A DNA stretch of 26,553 nucleotides from Punctularia strigosozonata HHB-11173 SS5 (taxonomy: Eukaryota; Basidiomycota; Agaricomycetes; Corticiales; Punctulariaceae). The notes below the pieces were generated by a model. It saw only the letters and a program-made list of their open reading frames with translations. It did no database searches and was not told the origin of the DNA. Below are positions 2,219 through 26,553 of this stretch, piece after piece. The stretch spans positions 51,089 to 77,641 of the forward strand of contig NW_006767436.1 in the NCBI RefSeq assembly GCF_000264995.1, read 5' to 3'. Position numbers and translations under genes: made by a program. Within the stretch, counting starts at the first letter, position 1, and every line of letters starts with the position of its first letter.

Positions 2219-2253
<35 letters not shown>

Positions 2254-3546
2254 GTGTGTGTGTCTGAAGTGGGGACCGAGCTCGGATCGGGGTGGGAGGC
2301 GGAGGCGGAGGCGGAGAAGGGGGAGGTGCGCGTGGGGGGCGAGAGGTAAGGGGGCGGGGAGGTCCAGTCGCCGGCGCCGAGCCCGGCGAGGGAGGCGGTG
2401 AACTGGCGGGTGAGGGAGGAGAGGGCGGAGGCGGAGGGAGAGGTCTGGGAGGAGGAAGGGGAGGGGGAGGAGGAGGCGGGGTAGGGCGCAAGGAAGTGGG
2501 CGGGCGTGTGGAAGGGGAGGAGGACGATGGGCGCGCCGGGGCGGAGCGAGGCTGGGCGGCCGTGAGAGGTGGAAGGGGGAGAGGGGGAGAGGAAGAGCGG
2601 GAGGGGGAGGTAAGGCGTCGGGCGGAGGAGAGGATGGATGGAGATGTGCGTCGCGTGGAGGTGTAGGTGCAGGTGGCAGTATATCAGGGGTCTGTTGAAA
2701 CAGAATAGAAAAAATGGGATGGTTAGCGATGAGGAGAGGCCGAGATGTGGGGACGTGTCCTTCTGACCTTGACTGGGCGTGGTGCTGCCATCCGTCGCTC
2801 CAGCGCGACGTGGCCGGGCTCGGGCCGAGGAGGAAGCCCGCGCCGAGCCTCTTCACGGGCGGCTCGCTCGGGTCGGTGGAACATGCGGAGACGCGGACGA
2901 CGTCGTCGAGGAGACGAGCGCGGAGCGCGTCCAAGAAGAGGGCGTAGGGCAGGCGGAGCGGCTCGCGGGGGAGGCGCGGGCCCGAGCCGGCGCGGCGCGG
3001 GCGGGACGGGCTCGCGGGCGGGCTCGGGTAGCGGGGGAGCGCGTGCGCGAGGGGCGGGTTGAGGCAGGCGGGGCAGGGCATGCGCTGCGGGGCGCAGGCG
3101 GGCGAGCAGGGGTAGAGGTCCTGCGGGGTGAACGTGCCGGTGTCGCGGAGGACGAGGGAGGGGGGGAGGGAGGCGGAGAGGGAGGCGAGGGCGGTGGTGG
3201 ACGGCGTGGGGCCGTCCGTCGTGCCGAGGGCGAAGACGTAGAGCAGGCCGAGGGCGACGTGCGTGTACGGGAGGAGCGCGTCGCGTAGCGGAGGCGGGGC
3301 GAGGCGGTCGGGTCCATGCTGGACGATGGGAAAGGCGAGGATGCGGCGGCGGGCGTCGTCGAGCGTGTGGAGGACGTCGGATGCAGCCGAGGCCGGTGCG
3401 TACACCGAGTAAGAGACGAGCGGATTGGGCAAAAGCGGGAGAGAGGCGGCGAGGAGCGGCGAGGAGGGCGCGAGCGAGGCTGGAAGCTGGGCGAGGAGCG
3501 TCGTCGCTGCGTGGTCCGGGTTCGCGAGCGACGTCTTGGCCGCCAT
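1..3546 (-). CDS. MED13: Mediator complex subunit 13 (N-terminal part, runs off the left edge)
   Basis: MED13 (SSN2/SRB9 in yeast) links the CDK8 kinase module to core Mediator in the nucleus. I see two exons: 3546-2768 and 2691 to beyond position 1, joined by a 76-bp intron (GTCAGA donor, CTAAC branch-like site, AACAG acceptor) that splits an Arg codon. The second frame stays open to the window edge, giving about 1,156 residues. Residues 1-~450 resemble the Med13 N-terminal domain: an HPLLRPTPYLPLPLF stretch, then LTRQFTASLAGLGAGDW, then YIIAWLPLD...GLPIVWPARLSLAF. Near residue 850 there is an acidic FTEDDFSFFD motif typical of fungal Med13, followed by a GWRLRY...VIKQLIGVKRK block. Linkers are Pro, Gly, Glu/Arg and Asp/Arg repeats. 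The C-terminal PIWI-like part lies outside. The ATG at 3546 was chosen because the frame extends upstream only to a non-ATG codon. It is divergent from SPT4. Assignment is from motifs, without a database search. Confidence 0.82.
2217..2262. repeat. Hexanucleotide microsatellite inside MED13
   Basis: About five to six copies of TCCCTG on the plus strand. On the minus strand they encode an alternating Arg-Asp run in the MED13 linker just before the YIIAWLPL block. Length changes of whole hexamers would not shift the frame. Confidence 0.8.
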
Positions 3547-4055
3547 CGTCGTCTGCGTCGTCCGTGCAAGTTGAGGGGAAAAGGGGCCCCCCGGTAGATC
3601 TTGATTATATGCGTCGGTCAACGTGGGTTTGATGTGCGGGGCAGTTTATCTAGATGAGATTGCAGGACGGCCGCGAGCACGCAAGGTGCCCCGGGTCTTT
3701 GTCGAGTGTTGAAGCTCGTAATCAGGGCCGACAAGTCCGCGAAGCCCGAGCAATATCAGCAGGGCTACCTCTCGGTATAACAAGTCGAGAGGCCAGTGAA
3801 CCAGAAGAATAAGCGAAGAAATATTCGATATCGAGTCCCTCGCGCTACTCGTCCATCGCACCTCGTCCGTCGGTGTCGTGGACGTGTGGACAAGCCCGAT
3901 CCGGACTGGCGCCTTCGATCACTGAGTCACATGCGGCAGCTCCCTGTTCCACGTGTCCCACCCGAGTGCCCATCGTCAGTGCTCCACGTGCCTCTTTCTT
4001 CCCCGTCTTTCTCAGCCCCCCGCCTGGACCGGGTCGTCCACCACCTCCAACGCTG
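3547..4055. promoter_or_regulatory. Shared divergent promoter of MED13 and SPT4
   Basis: A 509-bp interval separates the two start codons. It holds a TGAGTCA site (3923-3929), the core recognised by Gcn4/AP-1-type bZIP factors, and two CACGTG boxes (3950-3955 and 3985-3990), recognised by bHLH factors such as Cbf1/Pho4 types. All lie within 135 bp of the SPT4 ATG. The sites are seen; their use is inferred. Confidence 0.5.
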
Positions 4056-6612: not shown

Positions 6613-7370
6613 AAATTGAAGGGGGGGCGTCGTACGTCGTTTTCGGGTCGGTCGAGGTGGGACGAAAAAAAGGGGTGGAAGCGGTGGTGAAATACTGACT
6701 TTGTCTGATTTGTCTGCTCTGTCTCTGTCTCTGTCTCTTTTCTCTTTCTCTCTGTCTTCCATCTTTCCTCTGATATATAGTCTCCTTGTGTATGCACGGC
6801 TACGCTGATATATGCCGATCGGCATTACCGACTGTCTCTAGTCTCATAAAACCGATTAATATATATATATATGTTTTGCTGCGCTTCGTTCGTCGACGCA
6901 CATGCACGCTCAGCTTGCCGACAAACCAAGTCTGCCGATATTCAGGGGCTGCGGAGCCTTCACGGACATATGCCTAGTCGGACTGTAAGTATGCTCGGTC
7001 TCAACAACTGCATGACGGGGGCTTCCTCCGAAACATGGGGAATATCGATGGCCTGCTGGCGGACTGGGAAGAAGAAGCCTGCTGCCGGGCGGAAAGAACC
7101 GGCGTCTGACGGCGATATGATCATAGCCCCCTCCTTCGCCGACCAGAAATCGTTCTAAGACATCGTTCAGGTCTGGAGACGGTGCAGGGCCGTCGCGATC
7201 CAACTTCACTGGTAATAACAAGAACGCAGTAGGAGTAAACTACTAGACGGCTATCGTCAGTACTGTTACAAGCATGAGCTCAAGTTCCTTAGCTACGCGT
7301 CGGGGGTGGGGGGATATCCATGGAATGCTCCGTCAGATTAAAAATTTTGAGAAAAAAAAAAGAGGGAGTC
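6613..7370. other. Intergenic stretch without a recognisable gene
   Basis: This follows the Trp-rich gene. It has a CT-rich run at 6713-6765 (repeated TCTG/TCTC), probably 3' UTR, and a short AT dinucleotide run near 6860-6870. Base composition falls from about 70% GC to a mixed level here. The small open frames have no family features. Confidence 0.5.
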
Positions 7371-7594
7371 GCCCTTCCGGTCCAGCTCGCGCCACCTTTC
7401 CGCACATCCGCACGCAAACGTGCGAGTTGCTCGCTTGTGCAGCCTCTCCACGCCGCTTGGACGTCCCTGTCCGCCTTACAGAGCTCCCTGTCCGCATGCA
7501 GCGTGGCATGCTTCAACACTTTGGAATGCCGCTGGAGGTTGCCGAGCGAACGTTCGAGCTCGCGGTTGGACGGGTTGAACGCGAGTAAAAGGAG
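7371..7594 (-). pseudogene. Possible exon relic of an unknown helical protein
   Basis: A short GC-richer island in AT-rich surroundings reads on the minus strand as about 70 residues with many charged residues: NRELERSLGNLQRH, then ADRELCKADRDVQ, then LARLRADVRKGG. It looks alpha-helical or coiled-coil. The frame runs into low-complexity T-rich sequence downstream and has no clear start upstream. I cannot name the family. It may be an exon fragment left in transposon-rich DNA, or chance. Confidence 0.25.
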
Positions 7595-7760
7595 AGATGC
7601 GGAGCCTGTGTGAGTAGCGCGATCGGCAGCATCAGGAAAACCCCCAACTGGTGAATTTGAACACATTGGGTCAGATTGTGCTAATTAAAGTAGCTTCAAC
7701 TAACTTTGGGATAATTTTGTATAATTAAGAGTAATACAAGCAAAATATGAGCCTGTCCTG

Positions 7761-8183
7761 TCAATAGACAGTCTTATAGGTATGTGCATTCCCAAAACAG
7801 TTTACATAGAAGAAGGAAGCATGCTCCATAGCACTGGATGAAGTCCATTCACATGGCACCTGTGAACCAAACTTGGGGATTAGGTGCGCAGCCTGATCCA
7901 ACCTGCACAAAGGGATGACTTCTGCATGTCTTTCCTCTCACTCTGTCCCCTCCCAGTCTAATGAGTGTAAAAGTTGGTACACGCCATGATCAGGATGTGG
8001 AGAGCAAAATGGTGAAATCCATTCAACATAAGCAAAGTAGTCTGACCCAGGAGACAAATCTTGCATAAATAGTGAGACCTGATATTTCTGTGGAATCTTG
8101 AAGATAATTTTGATCTGTGCAGCAGGATAATCTAGCCATGAGATTAGTACAGATAGCATTGGTACTAGATATAATAGTACCAA
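7761..8183 (-). pseudogene. 3'-end relic of a Plavaka-like (CACTA-related) transposase
   Basis: The minus strand reads QIKIIFKIPQKYQVSLF, then YFAYVEWISPF, then PDHGVYQLLHSLDWEG. After a stop/frame change near 7940 it continues in another frame as RHAEVIPLCRLDQAAHLIPK followed by FG, EWTSSSAMEHASFFYVNCFG and a stop at 7761. The order AYVEWF-like, PD-HGLY-like, IPL...HLIPKFG, WT, FYVN matches the C-terminal tail of the large ORF of basidiomycete Plavaka elements, as I remember that family. The rest of the element is missing and the frame is broken, so this is an inactive remnant. Family naming is from motif memory only. Confidence 0.55.
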
Positions 8184-9344
8184 TCATTCCTGGACCACAC
8201 CCATCCTTAGTGTAGTGATACGAGGCCGGTGGGGTGGACCAAGCAATGATGAGTGTGCGCGAGTCCTCGAGGCGCCACAGAGGCTGCCGAGATAGTGGAT
8301 AGTAGTGTAGGTGAACAGAGATGGGGGACAGAGTTTCGATGGCTAAGCTGGAGGTCGGGTGGTTGCTACGCTGGTTTCGGTCGCTGTGTTCGGTCACAGA
8401 TGACGGTGACTTCGTGTATATGCTGGGGTGAGCCTGTGCTATTGCTAGTGTACATGGATATCGAGGATTTATACGTGTGTTTGTGCCTGCATTTGTACGC
8501 GACTATCACTCCTATCTTTCGCCCCTGCTGATCCCTCGTCCCTCGTCCCTGGCCGTATTGAGCCCATCGCCCGTGCATGCGGTTGTTGTCAAGATCGAGC
8601 GGCCGGTAACCGCGAGTCGTGATGAATTGGGGGTGCCGATTTGCCAGATGCGAAGTCGTCGTTGTGGGCCAGAGCAGAGCCGCCGATAAGATGCTGGTGC
8701 CAACTGAGCCATGTCCTCGTGCGCGATGTCATTGCGGCGATGCGGTCTGTCGGCAGCAGGGTGCTGGAGGATGTTCTGTGTGCGCCATGCCGAGCCGGGG
8801 AAGGGTGAGGTCGTCGAGGCGAGAGCGAGAGACCACCGCACTGCCACCGGGCGTTGAGTAGCGCAATCAAGTGCATGTCCGGACGCGCGCGAAGTCAGAG
8901 CGCCACATTAGTCTTGCTCATAGTTACTGTAAGCAGAGGGGCTACCTGTAGATAGTCATCTAAAAAATCCTGATCTATATAGCTGCCCCTCAGACCTATA
9001 GTCACTATTGTAGTTTTATGGGTACTGTATAGAAGTAGGGTAGTTGTTAAAGTGTGCTATGAGTGCTATGTAGATGTCAGTCAGTTGCTACATAATTCTA
9101 TACAGTAGTTAGAGACAACATAGCTCAGTGATTTTAGCTACATAATGATACATATCTAATAGGTGCAGTCAACATAGCACCCATACATTTGGGATGTATC
9201 TGTTTAGTGGTGATAGCAGGCCTGCCAATTCACAAATAACATGATTCAAACAGTCTCAGGTCAATGGTAGTGACTCTATACTGTTAGATGATACATGCTT
9301 CTAACTATCTACCAAGTGAATGAAAATGTGCTATCTGAGTGGTA
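8184..9344. other. AT-rich intergenic DNA, no gene seen
   Basis: Both strands carry only short open frames without family motifs. Between 8930 and 9340 the sequence is markedly AT-rich, with several dispersed near-copies of GCTACATAAT, which suggests old transposon debris. I found no intact terminal repeats here. Confidence 0.45.
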
Positions 9345-9724
9345 CAGTCGAACACCTCATAATGCATAGGGTGATAATGCATAAATCTGATAATGCATCG
9401 GTTTTGGCCTGTAACCACCATGGTTTGCAGGGAATTGCAGGCAAATTGCATAATTGCATAACACATAGCCCAGATCGTACCTTTATGCATTATCAGATAG
9501 GCTGGGCATACCAAATATGGCTATATATCTTCCATATATAGACAAGTAAGCCCCACGCTGGGACCCTCACGTGATGTTAGCAGCACCTTGAGCGTGGACT
9601 TAGGGTTAGGGACTACCTTCTTGGGCTTGCATAGGGTTAGGGTCAGCTGCTGGAAGTGCATAAACTTGATAATGCATAGCAATGAGGGTGTAACCGACGC
9701 TATGCGTTATGAGATGTTCGACTG
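9345..9724. mobile_element. 380-bp MITE of the Tc1/mariner (pogo-type) class
   Basis: The ends are inverted repeats of about 25 bp. The left begins CAGTCGAACACCTCATAA at 9345. The right, read in reverse, begins CAGTCGAACATCTCATAA from 9724. Both ends are bordered by TA (9343-9344 and 9725-9726), as expected for Tc1/mariner target duplication. Internal GATAATGCAT-like repeats follow each end. It has no coding capacity. Its ends match those of the element starting at 26119, which carries a transposase, so that family probably mobilised it. Confidence 0.8.
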
Positions 9725-9825
9725 TAAGGGCACATTGGCCAATGCGGACTTAGAGATTTAATGCGAATCGACAAGACACGTGATACACATCACGTGATCA
9801 AATCTTGCCATGTCCAACTCACTGT

Positions 9826-9949
9826 CTCCGCCAGCAAGATTGCCACCCACCATGCTCGCAAGTGTGCTGACCACCGATCACCGCGCTCGCAAGTGCGCTT
9901 GCAAGTGCGCCACTCACCACGCCGGCAAGAGCACTGCCTACCGCGCTTG
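9826..9949. repeat. Degenerate minisatellite that served as insertion target (left side)
   Basis: Imperfect units around CACGCTCGCAAGTGTGC recur at short spacing up to the target duplication. The same type of sequence resumes immediately right of the large transposon (22453-22560). The array was therefore continuous before insertion. Confidence 0.55.
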
Positions 9950-9955
9950 CAAAGG
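9950..9955. repeat. Left target-site duplication CAAAGG
   Basis: CAAAGG directly precedes the left transposon end and is repeated exactly at 22447-22452. Confidence 0.85.
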
Positions 9956-9985
9956 TATGGCATCATTTATCGATAAAAATTATGA
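9956..9985 (+). repeat. Left terminal inverted repeat of the 12.5-kb transposon
   Basis: Starts TATGGCATCATTTATCG and continues AT-rich. It matches the reversed right end with two mismatches in the first 17 bases, then more loosely. Confidence 0.8.
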
Positions 9986-10186
9986 TCTGTGATCTGTGAT
10001 CTGCATTATAACCCTAGGTTCTGTTTGGTGAAATGCGATCTGACCCTAGCTTTGCCATCTCTGATCTGCAAATGGACCTGTTTTCTCAATATGCACTCGG
10101 TATACTCTGGTATGTAACCCTTATAAACTGTATCGGTGACATGCACTATGCATACTGTAACCTTCGATAGGTGATCTGTGATCTGC
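9981..10186 (+). repeat. Left subterminal GTGATCTG repeats
   Basis: GTGATCTGTGATCTGC occurs exactly at 9989-10004 and at 10171-10186, with shorter GATCTG copies between. A third exact copy lies inverted at 22397-22412 near the other end. Such subterminal repeats commonly bind transposase; that role is inferred. Confidence 0.7.
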
Positions 10187-10207
10187 ACATGTATCACTGG
10201 TCTACTG

Positions 10208-10412
10208 TGGTCAGTATGGCCTGTCTGTGGTTGTGCTGTGGTCAAGGTGTGGTCAAGGTGTGACCGAGGTGTGGTTGAGGTGTGGTCAAGGTGTGGTTAG
10301 ACCGTGGTCGAGGTATGGTTGGGGTGTGGTTGGACTGTGGTCAAGGTGTGGTTGGACTGTGGTCAGGGGTGTGGCTGGACTGTGGTCGAGGTGTGGTCGA
10401 GGTGTGGTCAAA
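10208..10412 (+). repeat. Tandem GTGTGGTC-type array in the left subterminal region
   Basis: About fifteen degenerate copies of a 10-12 bp unit (AGGTGTGGTC, GGACTGTGGTC) in direct orientation. The motif ACTGTGGTC recurs in inverted orientation at the right end (22140-22345). No open frame of interest; the array lies between the terminal repeat and the 3' end of the integrase gene. Confidence 0.75.
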
Positions 10413-10515
10413 CTGTGGGCAAACCAGCCACACTGCGATCAGAATGTGTCCAGATTATGATGTAGCTTTTGATTTAACATTTCGTACACTGCTACCTGTA
10501 GCCTAATGAATTCAG

Positions 10516-12354
10516 CTAAAATACATTTCCAGCAATCAGGCGAGCTGCTGCAAGCCCATAAACCCAAACATTTGCAATGGTGGTGTCGGCCGAAGACAAG
10601 ATCCATGACTGCATCACTGCATTGAATTGGATAATATCAGCTGCTGTCATTGGACCATCGGGGGCCTCCAATGGCACCTCATTGAGGTGAGCCGGCGGAC
10701 CCTGCTGTCCAGCCCATGTGGTGCTATCCTCTTGCTGATCTCTACCATTTCGGGCAAGCGACCGGAGAACATGATCCTCCCTCAGAGCCTCCCAGTCAAC
10801 TCCGAATGCTTCCAAGTCTTCATCTGCCATGGTTTCATTGACAACAAGGCGCTGGCCACGTATACCTTCAGTGAGCATATCAAAACCAAACATGTCAGCA
10901 GGTGAGCGATTTGGTCCACCACGAATCTGCATGTGGTGGTGATTCCAAGCCTCGGCAAAGAAGGTGAGCTGCTCGTTGATTGCTGGCAGGAAAAGATGGT
11001 GGAGAAGCCATATATGGCTTGCATTGTTGATGTCGAGGCCATAGGAGATTTCAAGCTGTGTGAACGATTCATGCCATAGTGATCCAACTTGGGCTGTCAC
11101 ATCAACCCAGAGACGCTCAATGCGCACATTGTGCACACTCCTGTAAACTTTGTTAGTGGGCAGCACAACTAGGAGTGGGTAGGTATACCTTCCCCAAATA
11201 TATGCACCGCGCTGGCCCGGATAGGCATTCTCCATGAAGGCTGCTACTAAAAGATTCTCCACGCCATGGTCACCCCGCATCCGCACAGGAACCCCATACA
11301 TCTGTGTGGCATCTATGAAAAGGGCAAGGACAGTTTCACCCTGGTTGTTGTTACTTGCACGGAGGCCCGTTATAAGCCGCGAGTACCCATCGATAAATCC
11401 ATGAATAACAATTCCCCACCGGATGAGACCTGCACCATATCAATTAGTAATCAGGTGTAGTCAGACATGGTTGAAGCACTGCACATACCATGCTGACCAT
11501 CGTGGTGCCACAATGCATTGGGACCAGGTACACTGTATGTGCGCCTCTGCACCCGGATGCGCTCAAATATACGTTCTACTGGATCAATGCGAGACAGTGA
11601 TTGCCTGATGCGATCGCGAGGAACACGGTGCCCAGAGTTGAGTAGCATCCCTTCAAGCATAGTAACCCCAGCATGTGGATAGGTCAGGCGTATGTGCGAT
11701 AGCAGCTGATCAAGATCGTTGTCGGATATTGAAGACAGTGGCCGGGTGTATGAGACAGTGGCAGGACCAGCTGTAGCAGAACCAGATGTGTGTGGATCAC
11801 TGGCAACATGTGGAGGGAAAGGATTTTCTTGGGGGGAAGCGATGCCATATTCGAGTAGGGCATTATGAACAACAGTCCTGCTAATGCCCAGAAATCTTGC
11901 AATACTCGATGTCGAACGCAAAGAATAGGCCCACCGGAGAAATGTGGGATCAATCACAATGGACGGCCGGCCAGGTCTCCCACTGTGTATAGTTTGTACA
12001 AGCTCTGGCTGTCCATGATGGGATGCCTCTAAGGCCTGATTAAATAGCATGCGAATGTCAATCTGCATTGCACCGATGTTGGCTCGAAGCTGTTGGAGCT
12101 CGCTGTTATAAAAAATGTGGTGATACTATTGGTGCCTCATCATTAGGATCAGAGATATAACAAAAGCTGTTACAAGCTTACCTGATTTACAAGGGCAAGG
12201 TACTCATCGAGGTCATCGCCGAGTCGTGCAATGACATTTGAATCGGTAGCTGACCCAGCTATCTCTGCGACAGCAGAGACAAACCTATGTGATAGTGTAC
12301 TCTGAAGGCCTCTAGGAGATCATTCATATGGGTAGTTTGGCCTGTGTTATCCAT
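10516..12354 (-). CDS. Integrase-core (DDE) transposase with N-terminal helix-turn-helix
   Basis: Predicted to cut and join the ends of the surrounding transposon. Exons: 12354-12182 (N-terminal, uncertain), 12089-11489, 11429-11189 and 11140-10516. Counting from the ATG at 12068, the secure part has 481 residues. A helix-turn-helix spans ~53-76 (SIARFLGISRTVVHNALLEY) after a GRPGRPS hook. The rve-type core has Asp190 (LWHHDGQHG), Asp247 (RMRGDHGVEN) and Glu282 (NVRIERLW), a D-56-D-34-E triad; IHGFIDGYSRLITGL lies between the Asp residues. A SPADMFGFDM block follows. The 48-bp intron 11188-11141 has no stop and keeps frame, so its retention would be tolerated. The 5' exon reads MDNTGQTTHMNDLLEAF, then continues (LSHRFVSAVAEIAGSATDS) only after a one-base frame change near 12300, so this copy may be damaged. 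It resembles integrase-core proteins common in agaricomycetes. Confidence 0.85.
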
Positions 12355-12448
12355 TGCGAGTGTAGACAGCATCCACAAAGGGAATTCTGGGCGGTAAGCC
12401 CCAACCTTCGCCAAGATCAGGTCACATGATCAAGATATCGCTGCATAG

Positions 12449-13980
12449 GCCTATACACTGTGGTTGCCTCTGCCCCATAGCTACTTTCCAGCCCTGTACA
12501 CTGTCATTCTTCCATTTGTTGCCCTCTATTGCCCTGCATATCATGATGGCAGTATCCCCCCAGTCTACCAGTGGTATGTGGATCTATATGGTCAGCTGCT
12601 GTTTAATGTGGCCGATAACGAAGTAGCAACCCTCGCAGATGCTCTGGCCTCATACAGCACAATTTCCTGCACCAGTATACTCTGGAAATCTCCACAGGAG
12701 AACCCACAGTTCCATGTTACAACATCCCTAACTACCTCCTCGGATACCATGAAGCTACGACCAAATGGTCGCTTCTCAATCTGTGTCAGCACTGTGATCG
12801 ATCTCCTTGCCTGTTCTGGCCTGATCCATCCCCTTCCTGCCTGGCTTTCGGCCATTCTTCATGATTGCCCTGCTCTGGATGTTGCTACAGCATCTGTACC
12901 CGAGTTGGGCCCTGCTATAGAGCAGCTGAGTAATGGCTATCGCTGGTTAGGGTCGCTAGCCTCCTTCAAGAACTGCTCGGAGATGCCTTCTGATGGCCAG
13001 ATGGATGTGGCTCGTGAGATTATGGCAATAGACCCAAATAGTCGCACCCCATCTATCCAGGATATCATCACCCAGTATCTCGTTCCTGTAGGAGCCGATC
13101 CACATCTGCATTTCATTATAATATTTCGACCCTCCCAGACCACCCTCCTTCTGCAACCCTTTCGCCACCCATCACCCCTGTCATCCAGCACAAGTGCTGG
13201 GAGCCCTAGGGTCTCTCCTGGACCCCTATATCTGTCAGGATCAGATGCCGATCTATCCTCCCTCCATCAGGGGTCTGTGCCTTCGCCACTTGGAACACCA
13301 TCCCCAGGCCTGCCAGACTCTCCAGGTCGCCTGCATGTGCATGCAAGTGACATCCAGGGTACCGATACTGCACGGCAAAGCAGCGATCGCAACATCGGTG
13401 CACTGCGCACAGGCATCCACACCCTATGTCTAGAGCTTGGTGTTACCGAGGCACAGATGCAGGCAGCTTCGTTCAGTCCCCAGAGAGGTGTCAGTATACT
13501 GTTCTCATCCATACAAAACCACCGTGCCATGTCATCGCTCCTGGTGCAGATTGGGCTACAGGGATATCAGGACGATACCAATGGCAAATCAGTGTGCCGC
13601 TTACCAGGCGGGCTGGATCTCACTGCCTCCTCTGTTCTATCTGAGTTCGGCTGGATAATTCAGACCTATAGAAAGAAGAGCCAGGCATACACTGCTGCAG
13701 AGCAGTATGCAGCGATGGAATGGCCGGCAAACATACAGTGTATGTAGTATCGACTTTTACTATATATTAATCTGGTCTCACTGCTATGGTAGACGACGAT
13801 GGACCAAATCGAAAGCTATACATAGTTTGGCAGTCTATCAAGGCACTTTTCGGTCCTGGTGGATTTTTGGATCGTAACCAGCTGCCACCCAGAGGCTCTA
13901 TGGCAGCCAAACTGACCCAAAACGACCTATATAGCTACCAAACTGCTCTTCGCAATACTCTGATTGCTGGGCCACAGTAG
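12449..13980 (+). CDS. Transposon-borne protein of unknown function
   Basis: Exons 12449-13739 and 13793-13980 are joined by a 53-bp intron (perfect GTATGT donor, GGTAG acceptor) that restores ...EWPANIQYDDDGPNRKLY. The open frame gives up to 492 residues, but no ATG begins it. An ATG at 12426 lies in another frame, so either a small 5' exon is missed or the start is frameshifted. Residues ~1-220 look helical and globular (ALYTVILPFVALYCPAYHDG, VYQWYVDLYGQLLFN). A Pro/Ser-rich linker follows, then a C-terminal globular part (LYIVWQSIKALFGPGGF, LPPRGSMAAKLTQNDLYSY). No catalytic motif was recognised. It is divergent from the integrase, with only about 100 bp between, and convergent with the dioxygenase-like gene. 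It could be an accessory transposition protein, by position only. Confidence 0.6.
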
Positions 13981-14697
13981 TTTATGCATAGGATAGTGTT
14001 CCGTTGGGAAAGCTAGGTTTCATAATCTGACAGTAGACTATCACCAATGTCCCTCTACCACTTCGCCGGTGTCCCTGCACCGCTTTGCCGATGCCAATCC
14101 CACTATTCCTGTTAATCCCGCACCTCCGCCGTCAGTCACGATCCAGACCACGTGGCAACCACATGGGTTTGCAGCATTCACCTGCACAGCATCCTCTTTA
14201 CCCGCCCCCTATACTTATTCTAACCTTTCAGACTGCGGACACATGGGCTCCAGTGGGCGCACCGGAGCAGAGGTCACGTGTGGCGGTGGAAATTCTCAAG
14301 CGGCGGAGGCCGTGCGCTGGCTCTCTGCCTCCGCGCTTGTGGGCGGTGAGGAGATAATCCTCCTGCCTTTTCTTTCGTCCCACCCTCCACAAGCTTGTAA
14401 CAATATATAGGCTGCTCCATTATTTAGATGGTTACCACTAGAAAGGTACATTGAGCAGCCCAGGACCCGCTGACACGGAGAGAAGACCGGCTGAGTAGGC
14501 CAGGGGCGCGCCGTCGTGCTTGCAACCAGCCCTACGCCCAAGCCATCAGGCTTCACCCACACTCACGGTGGTCGTCTCCCTGCGCCATTGGGCTCACAGA
14601 CTGAAGGACCGCAGCCCGCTCGAGAACAAAAACTGAAAGCTCTGTGTTGGGTAATTGGCCAACAGGCTGTACTATATATGGGGGTACAGAAATACCA
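13981..14697. other. Intergenic stretch inside the transposon, no gene seen
   Basis: This lies between the convergent 3' ends of the unknown gene (plus) and the dioxygenase-like gene (minus). Open frames here, up to 113 codons, lack family features. It probably holds the 3' UTRs and terminators of both genes. Confidence 0.45.
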
Positions 14698-16527
14698 CTA
14701 CAGCTGTCCTTCAATGAAAGGGTTACCTTCCCCTGCCCCTTCTCCTGGCACAATACTATAGCCTCGCTCTTCCTCCTTTGCCTGCTGCATGGCATCAGCA
14801 ACAGCCTGGGTGAATGTGAATGTGATCCCAGCAGACCCATGACCATCACTGAGGGTGGTGGCATGCAGGTGCTCTGGCTTGAATGCCAATAGTGTGTGTG
14901 CAGCTGACTTCACCACCACCCTAAGCTCCAGGTCTACAAGGTTAGCACCCCCATCAGGAGGAAACCGCTGCTTTGGGTGGATTTTGTTTTTGAGCCGCTC
15001 CATAAACCTCCCCGTATCTGTGCAGAGAGAGATGGAATACTTGGTATAGTGCCTGTCAATATGGGACCAGCTAGAAAATGTAGCTCAGTGTGCTGCATAA
15101 TAATACAAACCTGGTATAACCTACGCAATATAGCCCTTGGTAATAACACCTTGTGGGGGAGACCGCATGGCAGCAGGGTAATCAAACTGCTGACCCCCAA
15201 CCTTGATGTGATACCCAGTGCCTAAAAACATTCAGCTCAATTAGACTGGATAGATAGGGCTAAAGACCACCTTCACTGATCCTCAGGGTAGACAGACGGG
15301 GCATCTGGGCTTCCTCCATTGACTCCTGGATATCCTTGAGGACCTCAGAAGGCATATTGGCACAGACAAGGCCCCATATAACCGCCATAGCACCTATAAT
15401 GTCTTCATCGTTGGCATCGCATAGCTCCTTGTGCTTCCTAATATTTGATTTGAAGCTAACAGCATTGCCAAGGACTTTGGCATGCCGCGCCCCCATACAA
15501 AGGCCAATCTGTGCCATGCTGCCAGCATGGTTGGGCTAGTATGCCATTAGAGAAATATAGCTGGATAAGGTTATATGCGTACCCGGACATTGCCCTGTAT
15601 CTTGACAGCAGCATTAACCGCATCATTGAGGAATGTGTATAGCGGCACCGAAAATTTGTCGCCCTCAGCAATATGGCGCAGGCAGACAAGCTCAACCTCT
15701 GGTTCTAAAATAGCATTAGCCCTAGCCAGATGCACAGTGCAGATGATATTACCTTCGTAAGTCCCTGACCAGAAAATAACAGACTCCCCAGGAGCGACGA
15801 CGAAAAATCCAGTGTCTGCATTGGCAAGAAATTGGCCATGGAGGGCAGGCCCAACCTCGACAATATGTACCCTATGCTTGCAGGGGGGGCCAACAGGTAT
15901 GCGCCGCACAAAGCGGACACCAGTGGCGGGATCCACAAAGTCGTCCATAGCAGCCCCGCATAGTATCTCAGCGAGGGGACCAAAATGCCTGTTGATACCT
16001 AGCCCGCGTACCTGCCATAGCATTAAAAATAGGATAGGTAGCAGGGTGGGTAAAGGCAGGCTTACCAGGTTGCGTCGCTGGCGTACATTGGCCAGGGGCT
16101 GCGACTCTGCCTGCACATCCTTAAGGATATAGGCAAGATGCCTATAGGCCTGCCTCTGCCATCCCTGCACTGCAGGTGGTGCACTGGGCTTGGGATTCTG
16201 CCCAGCAGCAGCAATCTTCCTGAGCTACTGCACAGTTAGTGAACAGGAATGTATAGGGGGGAATAGGCATACCACACCGACTAGGCCATCGTTACCAGCA
16301 GTGTAGGGCGAACGCAGTGCCAGATCAGTGAGTGTGGCATCTTCGCTGGTGATACTGGTGACAGTGATAGCCTCAACAGCATCCAGGGTGTCTGGGGATG
16401 CCAAAAATGCATGCACTATGAAGATAGTATTATTATTAGTGGTGGTGCATTTAGGGTTAGGTTTAGCCCTACATGCATCCCTGCTATCCTTGATGCGATT
16501 TTTCTTCTGTGTGCGACTAGGGGCCAT
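14698..16527 (-). CDS. 2-oxoglutarate/Fe(II) dioxygenase-like protein (possibly TET/JBP-like)
   Basis: Six exons fit without any forced step: 16527-16273, 16224-16066, 16011-15583, 15535-15271, 15221-15125 and 15070-14698, total 1,578 bp, 525 residues. The basic N terminus (MAPSRTQKKNRIKD) could be a nuclear signal. The middle has a conserved-looking SMAQIGLCMGARHAKVLGN and HKELCDANDEDIIGAM block. The C-terminal part fits a double-stranded beta-helix dioxygenase: WSHIDRHYTKYSISLCTD supplies H-x-D (His405, Asp407), and TLLAFKPEHLHATTL supplies the distal His (471). The usual distal Arg/Lys that binds 2-oxoglutarate is not obvious after it (GITFTFTQ). The 54-bp intron before exon 6 decides the HxD; using a later AG would remove it. 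TET/JBP oxygenases that oxidise 5-methylcytosine are known to travel with other fungal transposons, so a similar role is plausible but inferred. Confidence 0.65.
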
Positions 16528-16909
16528 GTTAGCTGCAGCTGTGGTGGTGGTGGTTACAGTACAAGGGACAGGGGCACCAGTATGGGCGAGGCAGGGGCTG
16601 CCTGCCACAGTAGCACTGCCACATTTAAATGCAGAATGTTTACCTACAGGGGGAATGGAACCAGGGGCTATTAGTTTACTCTCCTTCACACAGCTTAACA
16701 GTCAGGGACGATTTCAACCACTACACCATGGGGCTAATGTAGTGAGCCACAGCTCAAACTCTATAAGTGTGCTCCTCAGTTGTACTGGATGCACATCCAT
16801 GTATTATCCTGGCAGGCAGGGAAGTAGCAGCAATAGGAATCTGACAATTGGGAGCAGGGAGTGGGTATTAGGGAATGTTATGGTGTAGCTATGGTATACA
16901 TGTCAATAG
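16528..16909. other. Spacer between HECT-like and dioxygenase-like genes
   Basis: A 382-bp gap between two minus-strand genes; it should hold the dioxygenase-like promoter. A tRNA-like A-box pattern occurs on the minus strand near 16725-16740, but it does not fold (see rejected items). No gene seen. Confidence 0.4.
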
Positions 16910-19900
16910 CTATGCGATGGTATGCCCACCAATTGCCCCTGAGCACTCACACAGCAGCCAGTGATCTACAGCAGCCTGTAGCGACCTTGGCTCGCTGTCT
17001 TCCAGGTAGGATGCACCTACAAGGGCTAGTATATACTGGATAGGCAGGTGTGCCATCCGAAAGCAGGTGCGAAACGAAATTTTACCCTGGCGAGCCATGG
17101 CAGCTCCAGTACCCCGAGGGGCATATGATGGGCTGGCCTCATCAACGGAGTCCACCTGTAGCAGTATATATCAGCTGCAGGCAGTTGCTGTGAGCTGGAT
17201 CGGTGGCTCACCATCAGCACATCACCCCCTGTAGGTAGGAAGGGGCTACCAGTGGCTGCCCAGACGAAGTGCTGGCTACGAAACCCAGCATCGTCGATCT
17301 TCGACAGGTCAATGATCGATCCGATCTGTCCCCTCACCTCTTCAAATTTACCTGGGCATGGTATACCCGAGCCACTCAGAAAAGAGCGAACGAGGGAGGA
17401 AAAAAGCATAGTCCTGTCCTGGGAGGCTGCCTGCAGCTGGGCCACCAATTGGGGGGCAGGATCGGTTATCCTAATCAACCCATTGATTGCACTGAACGAG
17501 GAGATGTGGGAGGTCCAGACAAGGTTCAGGAAGGTTTCAGACCCCCCCTGTAGTGATGTGATGACCTAACAGCTTTATGTGAGTAAGGTGGGGGCGATGT
17601 CTCCAAAGAGTACATACATTGAGCAGGTTGAAGCCACCTGCACAGGGCAGTGCAAGGCCACTGAAGAATGCCTCCCATTCAGGATGGAGATGTGGCTCAG
17701 GCCCTATAATAGTACGATAGAGCATCTCACAGGCCATGGCATCGTGTAGGGCTGGGGTGCGACCCTGTAGAGCCAGCACCTAAGGGGTCATAATCAGGCT
17801 TTGGCGACCAGTACAATAGCTGCAGTACCCACCTCCATATCGTGCCAGGTTGCGAAATGTGGGCGAAATGGTGCGAGGTTACCAGCTGGACCAGCAGCGA
17901 TCCAGTCTAAGATTGTCTTTCGCAGCTCAGGGTGCCATTCGCCAATGAATGAGGGGTGTAGGGCATTGATATCTTTCCCATGAACAGCGAATTGGATGAT
18001 GCAGGGGTCAATGGGACCAGGCATGAAGCCATGGATCATGCAGAGTGAGGTAAGGGCCCCGAGCCTTGCGATAGCAAGCAGACGATCATCCGAAATCCAG
18101 CGAGCAGCCGAAGAGGGCAACTGAGTCTTAAGTGTCGATCGGCCATCTGCACAAGGAAGATACCACACAGCCTGCTGGTCGAGATACTGCTTCATTGCAG
18201 TCCAGGTGACCTCCCTCTCCAGCCCAGCACCGAACGAAACGCTGATGCCATGATCGTCAAGCCTAATATTCGCATTAGTTAGAGTAACAATACGATAGGG
18301 TATGCAAGCTTACGTTTGGAACTCTCGATTTGGTGAGGGAACATGTTGGAAATCGTGATCGGTGATCGCCTGCCCGATGGCTACCAAATACAGGTCGGCC
18401 ATCGCACTGACATTGCTGCCCTGGATGCGAAATGCATGGGGGTCGGTATTGGCTGTTGCAGCCTCGTATATAACTTTGGGCAGTGTATCGATAGTATATG
18501 TCAAGATCGGATACGGACAAGGGGTAACGGAGTCGGAGGACCGAAGTCCAAAACGTATATACGTAGAATAGAATGAAATAGAAGGGAGGAACTCAAGAGT
18601 GAAGTCGGAGCGGAGTCGGAGACGCGTCGGCGTGAAGTCGATAAGTCGGAAGCGTTGGTGGAGTCGAGATCGGATGCGGACCAAGCCTAAGCTTGTGCGC
18701 TAGGCTGCTACGCGCTCTGAGTCCGCAGGAGGAAGAGAGTAAAGCTTAGTCGATATTCGAACTGACTATCTACGGTACAGTTCGACGGTTTATATGTACA
18801 AAAGAGAACAATGGCAAAGTCGGAGAGTCGGAGATCGGAGGCGCCGTTCGGCGCACAAAGGGAACATACGGAGATGAGAGATATCGTATGGAACACAAAG
18901 GGAACATATCTACGGAAGAGACGGAAAGATCGGACCGAAAGATCCGTCACAAGCGACGGGAAACTAAAGTCTACAAAGGGAAGCTATGATGTCAGACAAA
19001 GGGAACAGGAAACAGGAAAATCGGAGTTGAATCCGTTCAAGATCTGGAACCACCGGGGCGTTGAGCCGCCGGTGGCCCGGTGCATGTGATAGGCGTATCC
19101 CGCCTTCGACCGAAACGGGAAAGTCGGGATCGGCGTCGGTGAAGGAGTCGGCGAAGGGTCGGAGATCGGATCGGAGAAGATCGGTGTAGATCGGTGACGA
19201 TCGGCGGAGCAGGTCGGCGTAGGTCGGTCTGGATCGACACGTGACAGTATACGAGAGTGGGCCACCATCAGTAGGCTGTGAGGGTGATGTCACGGGTCGA
19301 TCATCACCGACCATTGCCTACTATCCCCGACTGTCCTCTGACGTCTCCTCCGCTCTTCGCCGCTCATTTTCCCGCGGTCCTCCGACGGATCTCCGGTGGA
19401 CTTTTCGTATCTTTGACTCCCATATGTTCCCTTTGTTCGTCCTTGCTTATTCTCACACTGTATTTCTCTTCCTTGTGCTCGGTTCTCTTGGCACTGATTC
19501 CCTTTGTGTTCCACATGTACTTTAGATTGATTCCCTTTGTGTTCCACATGTACTTTAGATCTTCTTCCCTGTTCCCTTTGTCTTACTGATGATAGATTCA
19601 TCTCCGACTTTTCCATTGTTCTGCTTAGTACTTATACCAGCTCACCTGTACGATATTGCTCAGTTCCAATATCAACTAGGCTTTCCCCTTTGCTCCTAAG
19701 CAGACCTCGCGTGTGTAGCGACCCTTCGGGTCAAGTCCGCCTCTGCCCCGCTTTGCTCCGACTTTGCTCCGACGTTGCTCCGACTTTGCTCCGACGTCAG
19801 CACACCACTCTTCTCGATATTGTCTCTGAATCGCATCCACCCGACTCTGTGTTGTGGTCTGGGCAAGTACACCCCTGCTTGTTGGACTTAGGTCCACTCG

Positions 19901-21589
19901 TCCCAGACCCGTTCAGCTTCGGTATCGTTCATCTCCGCTTTTCCCGTGCATCGGACCTCCACATTACCGATATTTTTGCCCTGCAGTTCCGTCCCTGACA
20001 GGTGACCAGGGTGCTAATGGCGACCAGATCCTATCTGGAAGAATAGACATGAGGCTACAAAGAGACTGCTGGCGACCAAGAGGTCGAGGGGCATGGGTGG
20101 ACATTGGGACTGCCGATTGCAGTAGGTGACCTGGTGGTGGGGCATCATCGATTGCAGCATCGGTTGCAGCATCAGCAGCTGGACTGTCGCCCTCCATATC
20201 TTTGATATCCTCCATGTCCTCCATTTCCTCGCCCCCAGATGAACTTTCATTGCCTGTAAGGTCAGGGGGCATCGCAGCACCATTTCTGTCCTGAGGGAAC
20301 CAGGAATAGAGCTTCAGCCCCATACAGGTGTGTATTCGGCCCCTGTCAACATGTTGGAGGGGTGATTCAATGACACCTATACAAGACATAAGTATAGGTA
20401 GCGAGAGACTATCGCCAGAGACTTACCAAGATGCAGAACAAAGTGATCGTCCTCGATGCAGCAGGGAAGATTAAAGCGAACACGATCCTGCACGAGGTTG
20501 TTGAGTGATGCATTCTCTGGTGCATGAAAACCCCTAAGATGGATCTGACCAGTGCTTTTTCGCAGAATACCCTTGTTGACAACATGCAGGGCATGCAGTG
20601 GAAAGCCCTCGCCCCTAGTAGTGACAGGAAGTGGTGGTGGTGTAAAGCCATACTGCATCACCGAGTCATCCATCTTCTGGGCTGTCGCCTCGAGGATAGT
20701 GGACAAAGATCTTGATGCAGGGATCTCATCCCGATACAGGAGCCCATGATTCTCCAGGTAGTCGCTGAACAAATACCGAGTGAAGTTGTATAGCACATGC
20801 TCGCCAGGTACAGAGCCCTACAATAAATATTTAGATGAGATGAGCCAATACTGCCCAGGTAAAGCTTTGGTAACATACCTTGATGTTGGGGAAAGAGTCA
20901 GGCCTGGGTGGGTATACCTTAATCGTCACCCTTACAGTCGGTTCAGCAGCCCCATTCACAAAGAAAGGTGCGAAGCCCTGACGAGAGGCAGAGCGAAGTA
21001 CAGGAGGGTGCAGAGAAGGGCCCCTGCGACCTCGACGAGGCAGCATCGTGGGCCTTGGGGTAGTGGCAGCAGCCGATGCCCGTCGCTGCTGATTGACATG
21101 CCCAGTATCAAGCATCAGTGCGAGGAGGTGTATTCCTGGAAATGGCTGATGCCCAGCTGCCCCTGCCCCAGGTACACCAGCGAGAGAAGCTGCAGGTATT
21201 GGTAGGGTCTGCGATGTAGGGGGGTGGATGCTCTGATATGGCTGGGTAATCGCAGGGATACGAGGTGGCTGTGATGGGGCCATAGGTGTAGCAGTGTTTG
21301 GCAACAGCGAGCCGGATATATGGGGACGAGCAAGTGGCTGGGTGGTGGAAGCAGGGGGTGCATCTGAATGTGGTGGGGTAGGGAGAGGGTGTGGTGGAGC
21401 AGCGAGCGAAGCGAGGGTGCTGCCACCTGGTGCCGATGTCACAGCAGCAAATTGGCTCCCCTGGCCCTGCTCAGGCAATGCTGTTGCGATGGTTCCCTGG
21501 TTTCCGAGGAGCAGCTGGAGCTGCCCCAAATGAGGGCCAATCTGGGCGAAAAGAGCGAGAAGTTTGGGGGACAGATTATTCGACTGCAT
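16910..21589 (-). CDS. HECT-type E3 ubiquitin ligase-like protein, interrupted by an insertion
   Basis: HECT ligases take ubiquitin on a cysteine and pass it to substrates. Exons: 21589-20879, 20817-20427, 20376-~20001, ~18498-18314, 18262-17833, 17779-17618, 17565-17212 and 17155-16910, about 950 residues. The N-terminal ~200 residues are Pro/Ala/Ser-rich with basic stretches; an acidic linker (EEMEDMEDIKDMEG) follows. The C-terminal half reads like HECT-related proteins of agaricomycetes: IARLGALTSLCMIHGFMPGP, FIGEWHPELRKTILDW, FRPHFATWHDMEV, FFSGLALPCAGGF, FVWAATGSPFLP, and finally KISFRTCFRMAHLPIQYI, where T-C-F marks the catalytic Cys, ending AIGGHTIA. Introns are 51-62 bp. A ~1.5-kb LTR-like piece (18499-20000) sits in the reading frame; removing it with 5 bp restores the frame. 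This copy is therefore probably broken unless the insert is spliced out. A 5' non-coding exon upstream is possible. Confidence 0.72.
18499..20000 (-). mobile_element. LTR-like (or foldback) insertion in the HECT-like gene, ~1.5 kb
   Basis: The sequence starts TGTCAAGATCGGA and ends TCCGTCCCTGACA, i.e. TG...CA borders with a short inverted match (TGTCA). On the minus strand a TATAAA-like site lies about 300 bp before the end, as in an LTR. It also has inverted internal families: GTCGGAG and ACAAAGGGAACA copies on the left, CTCCGAC and TGTTCCCTTTGT copies on the right. No coding sequence. A solo LTR of a Ty3-type element is my first choice and a foldback element the second. No clear 5-bp target duplication was found (GTATA against GGTGA). 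Confidence 0.5.
19496..19561. repeat. 33-bp tandem duplication inside the LTR-like insert
   Basis: Two adjacent copies (from 19496 and 19529) of a unit containing CCCTTTGTGTTCCACATG and TACTTTAGAT, identical over nearly the full 33 bp. Confidence 0.85.
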
Positions 21590-22412
21590 CTGGGTTGTAT
21601 CAATATTTGGATGGTGAAGCTCAGTGACAATATTACCACTTACTATGCAAAACAGGGTCAAGAAAGTAGTGTGGTAGGCAAAACTGCAGGGGTAAATTGT
21701 GGCGAACAGGGAAGGTGGAGAGCAATTATGATTGTAACCTGATCGGAAATGAACTCTATCAGTCCAGGTGCTTCGAAGTGCGATTAAGACAGTGACATAC
21801 CTGATATTGGACTTAGTGTAGTCGGTGGTGTATAGCTTAGTATTGGATGGATGACAGGGCAAAGCCTGACCGACAAAAATAGATGTACCAAATCAGTTTG
21901 GGTAGGGAAGACATGCACGAGCAAGAATAGCCTACTGGTATTTAGGTGAGGTGACCTTGTGGAATAGGGAGTGTTTGTGTTGGTGGTGGCGAGTCGAAAT
22001 GCAGGCAGGGGCACAAAGAGGTCGGGCAGCGAGCAAGCTAGTCTAGGGGGAGACAGTAGGGCGAAGTAACAGTAGGGCAAAGCGACAGAGTCGATGACTC
22101 CTTTCCCTGGGTGCTACTGGGCCATGGTTAGCATGCGAGACCACAGTAACAGTAGGGCAGCCATAGCTCACTATGTTTGGCACCGAGCATGGTCACCTCT
22201 ATGGTCTCGGCTAGAGTGTAGTGTGGCTGCACCTGTGGTCTTGGCTGGGGTGTGGTGTGGTCTGTCCGAGTGTGGTGTGGTCTGCCCGACCACCATAGTT
22301 CCCCAAGCTCAGACCACAGTATAGCTAGGCATGACCACAGTACACAGATCGCGATCACACAGATGGGGCAGGCCAGCCAGGTTCGATTCACGCATCGCAG
22401 ATCACAGATCAC
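21590..22412. promoter_or_regulatory. HECT-like gene upstream region and right subterminal repeats
   Basis: No other gene seen. Near 21640 a GTAAGT donor followed by an AG at 21590 hints at a 5' UTR intron for the HECT-like gene. The stretch 21940-22090 is pyrimidine-rich on the minus strand, as in many fungal transcription starts. From 22130 to 22345 copies of GACCACAGT and GTGTGGTCTG mirror the left-end array in inverted orientation, and GCAGATCACAGATCAC (22397-22412) mirrors the GTGATCTG block. Confidence 0.5.
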
Positions 22413-22416
22413 GAGG

Positions 22417-22446
22417 CGTTATTTTACAACGATAAATAATGTCATA
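22417..22446 (-). repeat. Right terminal inverted repeat of the 12.5-kb transposon
   Basis: Ends CGATAAATAATGTCATA at 22446; the reverse complement matches the left end at 15 of the first 17 bases. Confidence 0.8.
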
Positions 22447-22452
22447 CAAAGG
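22447..22452. repeat. Right target-site duplication CAAAGG
   Basis: Exact copy of 9950-9955, directly abutting the right end of the transposon. Confidence 0.85.
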
Positions 22453-22560
22453 CGCCGGACGCGGCGCTGACGAGTGCGCCGTCCGCCCTCCTCGCGCCGA
22501 CAAATGCATGACCCACGGCGCTGGTAAGTGTGCCGGTCACCACGCGCAAGTGCGCATACT
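22453..22560. repeat. Degenerate minisatellite, right part of the split target
   Basis: Units such as GGCGCTGGTAAGTGTGCC and CACCACGCGCAAGTGCGC resemble those left of the transposon (9826-9949). Joined across one CAAAGG, both halves give a continuous open frame on the plus strand with Lys-Cys-Ala repeats. Confidence 0.5.
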
Positions 22561-25835: not shown

Positions 25836-26118
25836 CATCAAGAAGCCCTATAGCTGGGGTGAGGCTATACGGTCTGGGCACTGTCGGCCCACGTTTCCTT
25901 GTAGCTGATTCCTGCCAGCGAAAGGACCACAAAAAGCTGAGGTACGACGCTTGCACACCAAAGGCACCTAAAGGAGAAAGTGTGGCCAGCCCCAAAAAAG
26001 CAGTTGAATACTAGGAGCTGTGTGACTGGAGCACTGAGCATGTAAACACAGTCAATGCACGTCCGAGCTATTGTCGTAGAAGACTAAGAAGATGACCAGG
26101 CGGCAGGCCACGAGAATA

Positions 26119-26553
26119 CAGTCAAACACCTGATAACGCATAACGTGGTTCCGCGCGTCGAGGCTATGCATTATGAGATTTATGCATTAGCGTATATTAG
26201 GAATATTCATCTATTTATGGGGCCCACATATCGTCAAGAGTCATCTGGTTTGTCTCTGCAGAAAGCTGATCTCGTGTTACCTGTGCCCAAAGCTTACGCA
26301 GCTGTCCACAAAGCTCAGGTTTGTCATACTGTATACAGACGGCCTCCAACCGCGCGCACAGTAGTTTGACCTCATCCGGAGACTCGCCCGGGGGAGGTTT
26401 GTCATCGTCGTCATCCTCAGGCTCCGAGTCCGACTCCTGCGTAGGGTGAAGCTCGGACTGAAGCTCCTCAAGAATGTCGGCATCTCCACGCGGGTAAGTG
26501 AAGATGGTTTGACCAACTTCGAGTTCTTCTGGAGGATTAAGGACCTCGTCGAG
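26119..26553 (-). mobile_element. End of a Tc1/mariner (pogo-type) transposon, continuing past the right edge
   Basis: The end CAGTCAAACACCTGATAACG starts at 26119 after a TA (26117-26118). It aligns along about 70 bp with the ends of the MITE at 9345-9724, including an internal CTATGCATTAT block. The transposase stop codon lies about 100 bp inside, the expected layout for a compact pogo-like element. The other end is outside the window. Confidence 0.7.
26215..26553 (-). CDS. Pogo-type (CENP-B/Tigger-like) DDE transposase, C-terminal 112 residues
   Basis: The minus-strand frame is open from the window edge to a TAA at 26215-26217. It reads NPPEELEVGQTIFTYPRGDA, an acidic ESDSEPEDDDDDKPPPGES linker, a helical KLLCARLEAVCIQYDKPELC segment, and ends QMTLDDMWAP. 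The catalytic DDE domain would lie upstream, outside the window. This tail (Pro-Glu stretch, acidic run, Cys/Leu helix, TLD-x-W/F end) is what I recall for basidiomycete Tigger/pogo transposases of the DDE_1 family. Its position next to a TA-bordered inverted end supports this. It is probably the source of mobility for the related MITE at 9345. The gene looks intact as far as visible. Confidence 0.65.
   Translation of the reverse strand, partial: LDEVLNPPEELEVGQTIFTYPRGDADILEELQSELHPTQESDSEPEDDDDDKPPPGESPDEVKLLCARLEAVCIQYDKPELCGQLRKLWAQVTRDQLSAETNQMTLDDMWAP

Follow-up and report, generated by a model that had tools for sequence, protein, structure and literature searches.

The stretch of DNA analysed here (the window) comprises 26,553 nucleotides of the basidiomycete Punctularia strigosozonata HHB-11173 SS5, C4:51089-77641 of the host genome, and it holds a 12.5-kb transposon at 9956-22446 in which a transposase gene lies together with a dioxygenase-like gene, a HECT-like gene and a further open frame. 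The element is flanked on both sides by the target site duplication CAAAGG (9950..9955 and 22447..22452), and its ends are 17-bp terminal inverted repeats, TATGGCATCATTTATCG at 9956..9972 on the plus strand and TATGACATTATTTATCG at 22430..22446 on the minus strand, that match at 15 of 17 positions; duplications and repeats alike were read from the sequence and recovered by a scan. Just inside these ends lie mirrored subterminal repeats of the GATCTG type, with seven GATCTG units on the left (9984..10185, plus strand) and three inverted units on the right (22345..22410, minus strand), against five further units, three plus and two minus, elsewhere in the element.

These borders are those of a genuine insertion. 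Exactly one TA..TA pair spans the transposase gene with identical 6-bp flanks and ends matching at 15/17 or better, and among 100 block-shuffled windows we found no pair at that level and two in total at 13/17 or better; the same search in five other genome regions, four of them around the sister integrases described below, gave none. Genome-wide (33.57 Mb searched), the exact end pattern was found at three places, against none in the control: at the two ends of the element and at C6:1521012, within a 71-bp end-like piece (82%). When the two flanks were joined without the element, the genome returned nine matches, two of them to the window. Of the remaining seven, six are continuous over the junction without an insert, at five loci and 75-78% (C4:2497303 with the adjoining 2497428, C18:176617, C6:1542837, C6:1792696 and C1:375287), with only 15 bases matched left of the junction at C1:375287 and C6:1792696. 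The three loci that were aligned in full carry a single CAAATG where the window holds CAAAGG twice. These empty sites are copies of a GC-rich minisatellite whose alignment register is not unique, and are thus paralogous tandem repeats and not alleles; paralogous as they are, their continuity over the junction shows 9956 and 22446 to be insertion borders. The first-pass annotation had drawn a single element between these positions from its inverted ends, duplication and mirrored repeats, and both the shuffle control and the empty-site comparison bear it out. The insertion target itself (9880-9955 and 22453-22560) is GC-rich minisatellite, with units like GCGCTTGCAAGTGCGCC that recur at several further genomic sites.

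The transposase gene occupies 10519..12354 on the minus strand, in five exons (12354-12301, 12262-12182, 12125-11489, 11429-11189 and 11140-10519) whose spliced frame is open over 545 amino acids. Its catalytic triad is D254, D311 and E346, and the 34 residues between D311 and E346 give the exact D,D-34-E spacing that had been claimed for it. Pfam, run on the open frame 10516-11439, places it in rva_4 (6.6e-51), with rve at 0.0015, below the rve cut-off; no HHCC zinc motif was noticed by eye upstream of the core, a feature for which no profile search was made. The termini, TATGG... and ...TCATA, are TA..TA as defined for IS3EU, and the target duplication has the 6-bp length usual there. The resemblance to IS3EU noted in the first-pass annotation agrees with the marks given in PMC10045372, namely TA..TA ends and, usually, 6-bp target duplications. 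On the strength of these ends and this duplication we class the element as IS3EU-type, and a single element with IS3EU-like features and a DD34E transposase of the rva_4 family is well supported.

Four further rva_4 integrase loci are present in this genome, on C18, C2, C27 and C3, and their products are 28-71% identical to that of the window, depending on the piece compared. TET/JBP-type genes lie near the integrases of C27, C2 and C18 only (L032, C18:580475; L031, C2:2870500; L043, C27:18730-19368), none having been found near that of C3. The Tet_JBP matches stand about 3 kb from the integrase on C18 and about 11 kb from it on C2, where an LTR (long terminal repeat) intervenes. On C27, the closest sister, 37 bases separate the integrase frame from the end of a TET-like frame that is similar to the C2 TET (38% over 77 amino acids, 2.9e-8 by blastp). 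We regard it as possible that these loci represent a TET-bearing IS3EU lineage without an entry in the published list for Agaricomycotina. The small contig C27 carries, besides its integrase and TET-type gene, a tnp2-type transposase match (L042:6811-8601, PF02992, 2.3e-6, just under the cut-off).

Within the element, the dioxygenase-like gene lies at 14698..16527 on the minus strand. Our model has six exons (16527-16273, 16224-16066, 16011-15583, 15535-15271, 15221-15125 and 15070-14698) and GT-AG introns of 47-54 nt, and encodes 525 amino acids with HID and HLH motifs. TET/JBP motifs taken from the genome's own proteins place best on HID and on GANLVDLELRVVV...HLH, and a four-block comparison with the C27 protein finds its best placements at HID, the distal HLH and an FTFTQ stretch, in the expected order. 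The Tet_JBP profile is a blunt instrument for divergent members of the family, since the C27 protein, which resembles a Tet_JBP hit by blastp, is missed by Pfam too (E ≤ 0.01). The window protein may be a very divergent TET/JBP-like 2-oxoglutarate (2OG) dioxygenase. PE-type TETs carry HxE, according to PMC12730594; the window protein lacks this mark, having HID, and as a PE-type TET it is ruled out.

A good deal weighs against even this guarded assignment. At E ≤ 10, Pfam returned no family for the four proteins submitted, the dioxygenase-like and HECT-like proteins included, and at E ≤ 1 the Tet_JBP profile has no match in the window. The TET/JBP motif placement is equalled by 112 of 3000 shuffles, and the four-block test by 241 of 2000 shuffles and 2 of 66 open reading frames (ORFs), fractions that are not clean probabilities, the motif blocks having been picked after the claim was known and several having been tried. 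Five unrelated ORFs, among 391 examined, score at least as high as the dioxygenase-like protein, besides those of C18, C2 and C27. Its scores with a TET-profile hidden Markov model and with hhalign do not rise above those of shuffles; HxD followed by H 40-90 residues on occurs in 1006 of 2000 shuffles, and no 2OG-binding arginine was identified. Of the dioxygenase label in the first-pass annotation, then, the HID and HLH motifs stand, at a level reached by 4-12% of shuffles, and a profile match does not. We treat the label as a lead from weak motifs that gains from the TET/JBP-type genes near the sister integrases.

The HECT-like gene, also on the minus strand, is in two parts. The 5' part lies at 20001..21589 (exons 21589-20879, 20817-20427 and 20376 to about 20001) and the 3' part at 16910..18490 (exons 18490-18314, 18262-17833, 17779-17618, 17565-17212 and 17155-16910). 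Between them stand two solo LTRs, A at 18499..19246 (minus strand, with the 5-bp duplication TATAC on both sides) and B at 19288..20000 (plus strand, with GGTGA on both sides). The genome holds 31 or more other long matches to LTR A and 9 or more to LTR B, both counts being lower bounds (66 matches, with 40 of 61 candidates scored, and the window itself and short cross-matches left out). With their 5-bp duplications, the solo LTRs rule out 18.5-20.0 kb as the transposon's own cargo, and they are later insertions that have left this copy partly broken. Once the insert lengths are subtracted, the two parts share one common frame, and both must therefore once have been one gene; 21.6-20.0 kb and 18.5-16.9 kb as two genes is ruled out in the same way. 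With two LTRs inside this gene the copy is decaying, and the whole protein has no continuous frame here.

The 3' part encodes 455 amino acids in five exons. It contains WAATGSPFLPTGG, followed 45 residues later by FRTCFRMAHLP; this is the order of the two C-lobe motifs of HECT domains, and the pair sits near the C-terminus, as it does in HECT proteins, with a candidate catalytic cysteine in FRTCF. Of 5000 shuffles 15 attain the score of this pair, and of 199 other ORFs of at least 150 amino acids none does; with an N-lobe block added, 21 of 3000 shuffles and none of 49 ORFs attain it. As with the dioxygenase motifs, blocks picked after the claim was known keep these fractions from being clean probabilities. 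To judge by these motifs, the C-terminus of the large protein resembles a HECT C-lobe, catalytic cysteine included. Agaricomycete proteins resembling this one presumably carry HECT-domain annotation. Against a HECT assignment, the N-lobe block on its own is reached by 1603 of 3000 shuffles and lends no support. The HECT profile (PF00632) has no match in the window at E ≤ 1, and the HECT-like part none among PDB chains at E ≤ 10. When a seven-sequence HECT profile was run against 2001 targets, made up of the protein and its own shuffles, 564 were reported and the protein was not one of them, and its HECT hhalign score of 16.9 is below the best of 100 shuffles, 21.8. By blastp, the sister loci hold no HECT-like gene. 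The HECT ligase named in the first-pass annotation accordingly survives as a C-lobe-like motif pair, and not as a profile match, a PDB match or a gene intact in this copy.

Taken together, the two cargo genes leave room for a rival reading, in which the element is an IS3EU-type transposon whose passengers are neither dioxygenase nor HECT ligase; they would be lineage-specific cargo of other function, bearing their motifs by chance. The absence of any profile match for the cargo favours it, as do dioxygenase motifs that shuffles and some unrelated ORFs also attain, the HECT N-lobe that is not seen, and motif tests that were chosen with the claim already in hand. Set against it are the greater rarity of the HECT pair and its placement near the C-terminus, the expected order of HID, distal HLH and FTFTQ, and the TET-type genes near sister integrases. 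We consider this rival plausible enough to be kept in view, at somewhat less than an even chance.

The remaining cargo is an open frame at 12449..13744 on the plus strand, 432 codons from stop to stop, which has no Pfam family and no further genome match at E ≤ 1; the fourth, nameless protein of the first-pass annotation is thus present as an open frame. A MITE-like (miniature inverted-repeat transposable element) multicopy repeat lies inside the element near 14248..14631, where 44 of the 49 matches of a repeat search fall, at about 67-84% identity. Neither part of the HECT-like gene has another match in this genome at E ≤ 1. A search for further copies holding all four genes, which had been suggested as a check and was run in this genome alone, found neither such a copy nor a second full element, and no matching complete ends were found at C18, C2, C27 or C3, which counts against the reading favoured below. 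Searched against viral_contigs, the HECT-like 3' part gave 3 pattern stretches, the dioxygenase-like protein 1 and the transposase 4, none of them a relative. A later Pfam scan covered 20 chosen ORFs from the window and other selected stretches, and a further PDB sequence search gave one match, at E 1.8, that we take as chance. Single-exon AlphaFold models, one of the dioxygenase-like gene (mean pLDDT, the predicted local distance difference test, 44.4) and a second one (42.6), were not used for fold searches.

How does this element compare with known ones? IS3EU elements with TET genes have been described in Pucciniales (rusts) and Tuber indicum by Kojima 2025 (PMC12730594), and those of rusts have 6-bp duplications, TAYGG..CCRTA ends and an alpha-kinase passenger gene. 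The window element shares with the rust and Tuber elements its 6-bp duplications, TA..TA ends and passengers beside the transposase, a dioxygenase among them, here at motif level. It differs in that the rust elements have terminal inverted repeats of more than 30 bp, a recognisable TET and an alpha-kinase, whereas here we see repeats of 17 bp, a motif-level dioxygenase and a HECT-like gene. Kyakuja, Zisupton and Plavaka of mushrooms, described in the same text, are likewise DNA transposons with a dioxygenase gene (again motif-level here), but have other transposases, termini and duplications; in Kyakuja, for instance, these are CA..TG and 7 bp. The TET-bearing lineages which that paper gives for Agaricomycotina do not include IS3EU, and neither 'HECT' nor 'ubiquitin' occurs in its main text. 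IS3EU is mentioned as a repeat class in mushroom genomes in PMC12411881 and PMC8955403, and the text of a screen of fungal transposon fusions is without 'HECT' (PMC10799480). In the open-access literature, most subscription papers lying outside this scope, we found no transposon with a HECT gene, to judge by titles and abstracts, and none with a dioxygenase and HECT pair.

The composition of the element carries a record of its own. The genes have CpG observed/expected ratios of 0.39-0.61, and the two non-coding ends stand at 0.42 and 0.54. By comparison, the ratio is 1.05 for the right flank, 1.16 for the left 7 kb, 0.81 for 7001-9949 and 1.16 for the nested LTRs; TpG and CpA are raised in the element. 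The sister integrase loci stand at 0.70, 0.96, 0.75 and 0.80; of 13 other loci, 12 lie at 0.94-1.31 and one, a Tet_JBP locus (L034), at 0.66. This CpG poverty suggests a lineage long methylated in the past, and the nested LTRs look like younger arrivals. The CpG border is sharp on the right and not on the left, where the dip begins in the flank (0.65 and 0.58 in the 1-kb steps at 7.5-8.5 and 9-10 kb), which counts against the reading favoured below. A foreign, CpG-poor origin is another reading of the composition, and the decay itself shows that the cargo did not hold off decay of the methylation type, a further point against the favoured reading.

Composition also bears on whether the cargo is composite, with some of its genes belonging to mobile or host sequences of other origin that landed in an IS3EU element holding a transposase alone. 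Nested insertions are certainly present, in the two solo LTRs and the 14248-14631 repeat, and part of the cargo may have moved alone: a 5' relic of the dioxygenase-like gene lies separately at C18:322543-322988 (77%), and 16551-16743, upstream of that gene, matches C1:274750 (98% over 122 bp) and C11:749054 (87% over 189 bp). Yet all four genes and both non-coding ends have one CpG-poor composition, unlike the LTRs and the right flank, and this uniformity ties the four genes together. That the frames are open and the introns clean argues for genes that have been retained, and passenger genes, TET and alpha-kinase, are normal in rust IS3EU according to PMC12730594. On balance we find a composite cargo improbable. 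The stretch 16551-16743 is perhaps a short dispersed repeat, with box-like tRNA motifs seen by eye and no tRNA found by ARAGORN.

Two observations concern the flanks. Just left of the element, 9343-9372 and 9697-9726 form a 30-bp inverted repeat pair (90%), with a related stretch at 26117-26186; the left flank is CpG-poor there, and the pair may be a small MITE-like repeat in its own right. Further out, 2212-3645 on the minus strand is a host gene with the N-terminal domain of Mediator subunit 13 (Med13_N, 3.7e-15).

Overall, we favour, with a probability of about 0.5, the reading of the element as an IS3EU-type DNA transposon that moves by cut-and-paste and has a single copy here, its cargo helping it to escape from silencing and this copy now decaying. 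If it works as DDE transposases and integrases are known to do, the transposase would bind the mirrored subterminal repeats, cut both ends and join them to target DNA opened by cuts staggered by 6 bp. The passengers would be a 525-amino-acid TET/JBP-like candidate, a large protein with a C-terminus like a HECT C-lobe and the 432-codon frame, and their most likely role would be in the transposon's escape from host silencing. The dioxygenase might oxidise methylcytosine on the element, as is proposed for TET-bearing IS3EU of rusts in PMC12730594, and the HECT-like protein perhaps marks a host silencing factor for removal. The CpG loss of the element fits long methylation of such a lineage. A stronger version, in which a fungal IS3EU lineage carries a two-part counter-silencing cassette, a very divergent TET-like methylcytosine editor together with a HECT ligase of its own for the removal of a host protein that acts in silencing or repair, we think unlikely. 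What the sequence points to is an unusual cargo on the known theme of IS3EU with dioxygenase, the joint function of that cargo being unproven.

Enzymes that counter host silencing are known as cargo from few transposons. If the favoured reading is true, the dioxygenase-like gene found here would extend an IS3EU group whose reported members have so far come from rusts and Tuber, and cargo that includes a HECT-type ligase would suggest that transposons also oppose silencing by acting on proteins. Finally, a CpG-poor element with open genes, invaded by CpG-rich and apparently young LTRs, offers a usable record of methylation pressure.

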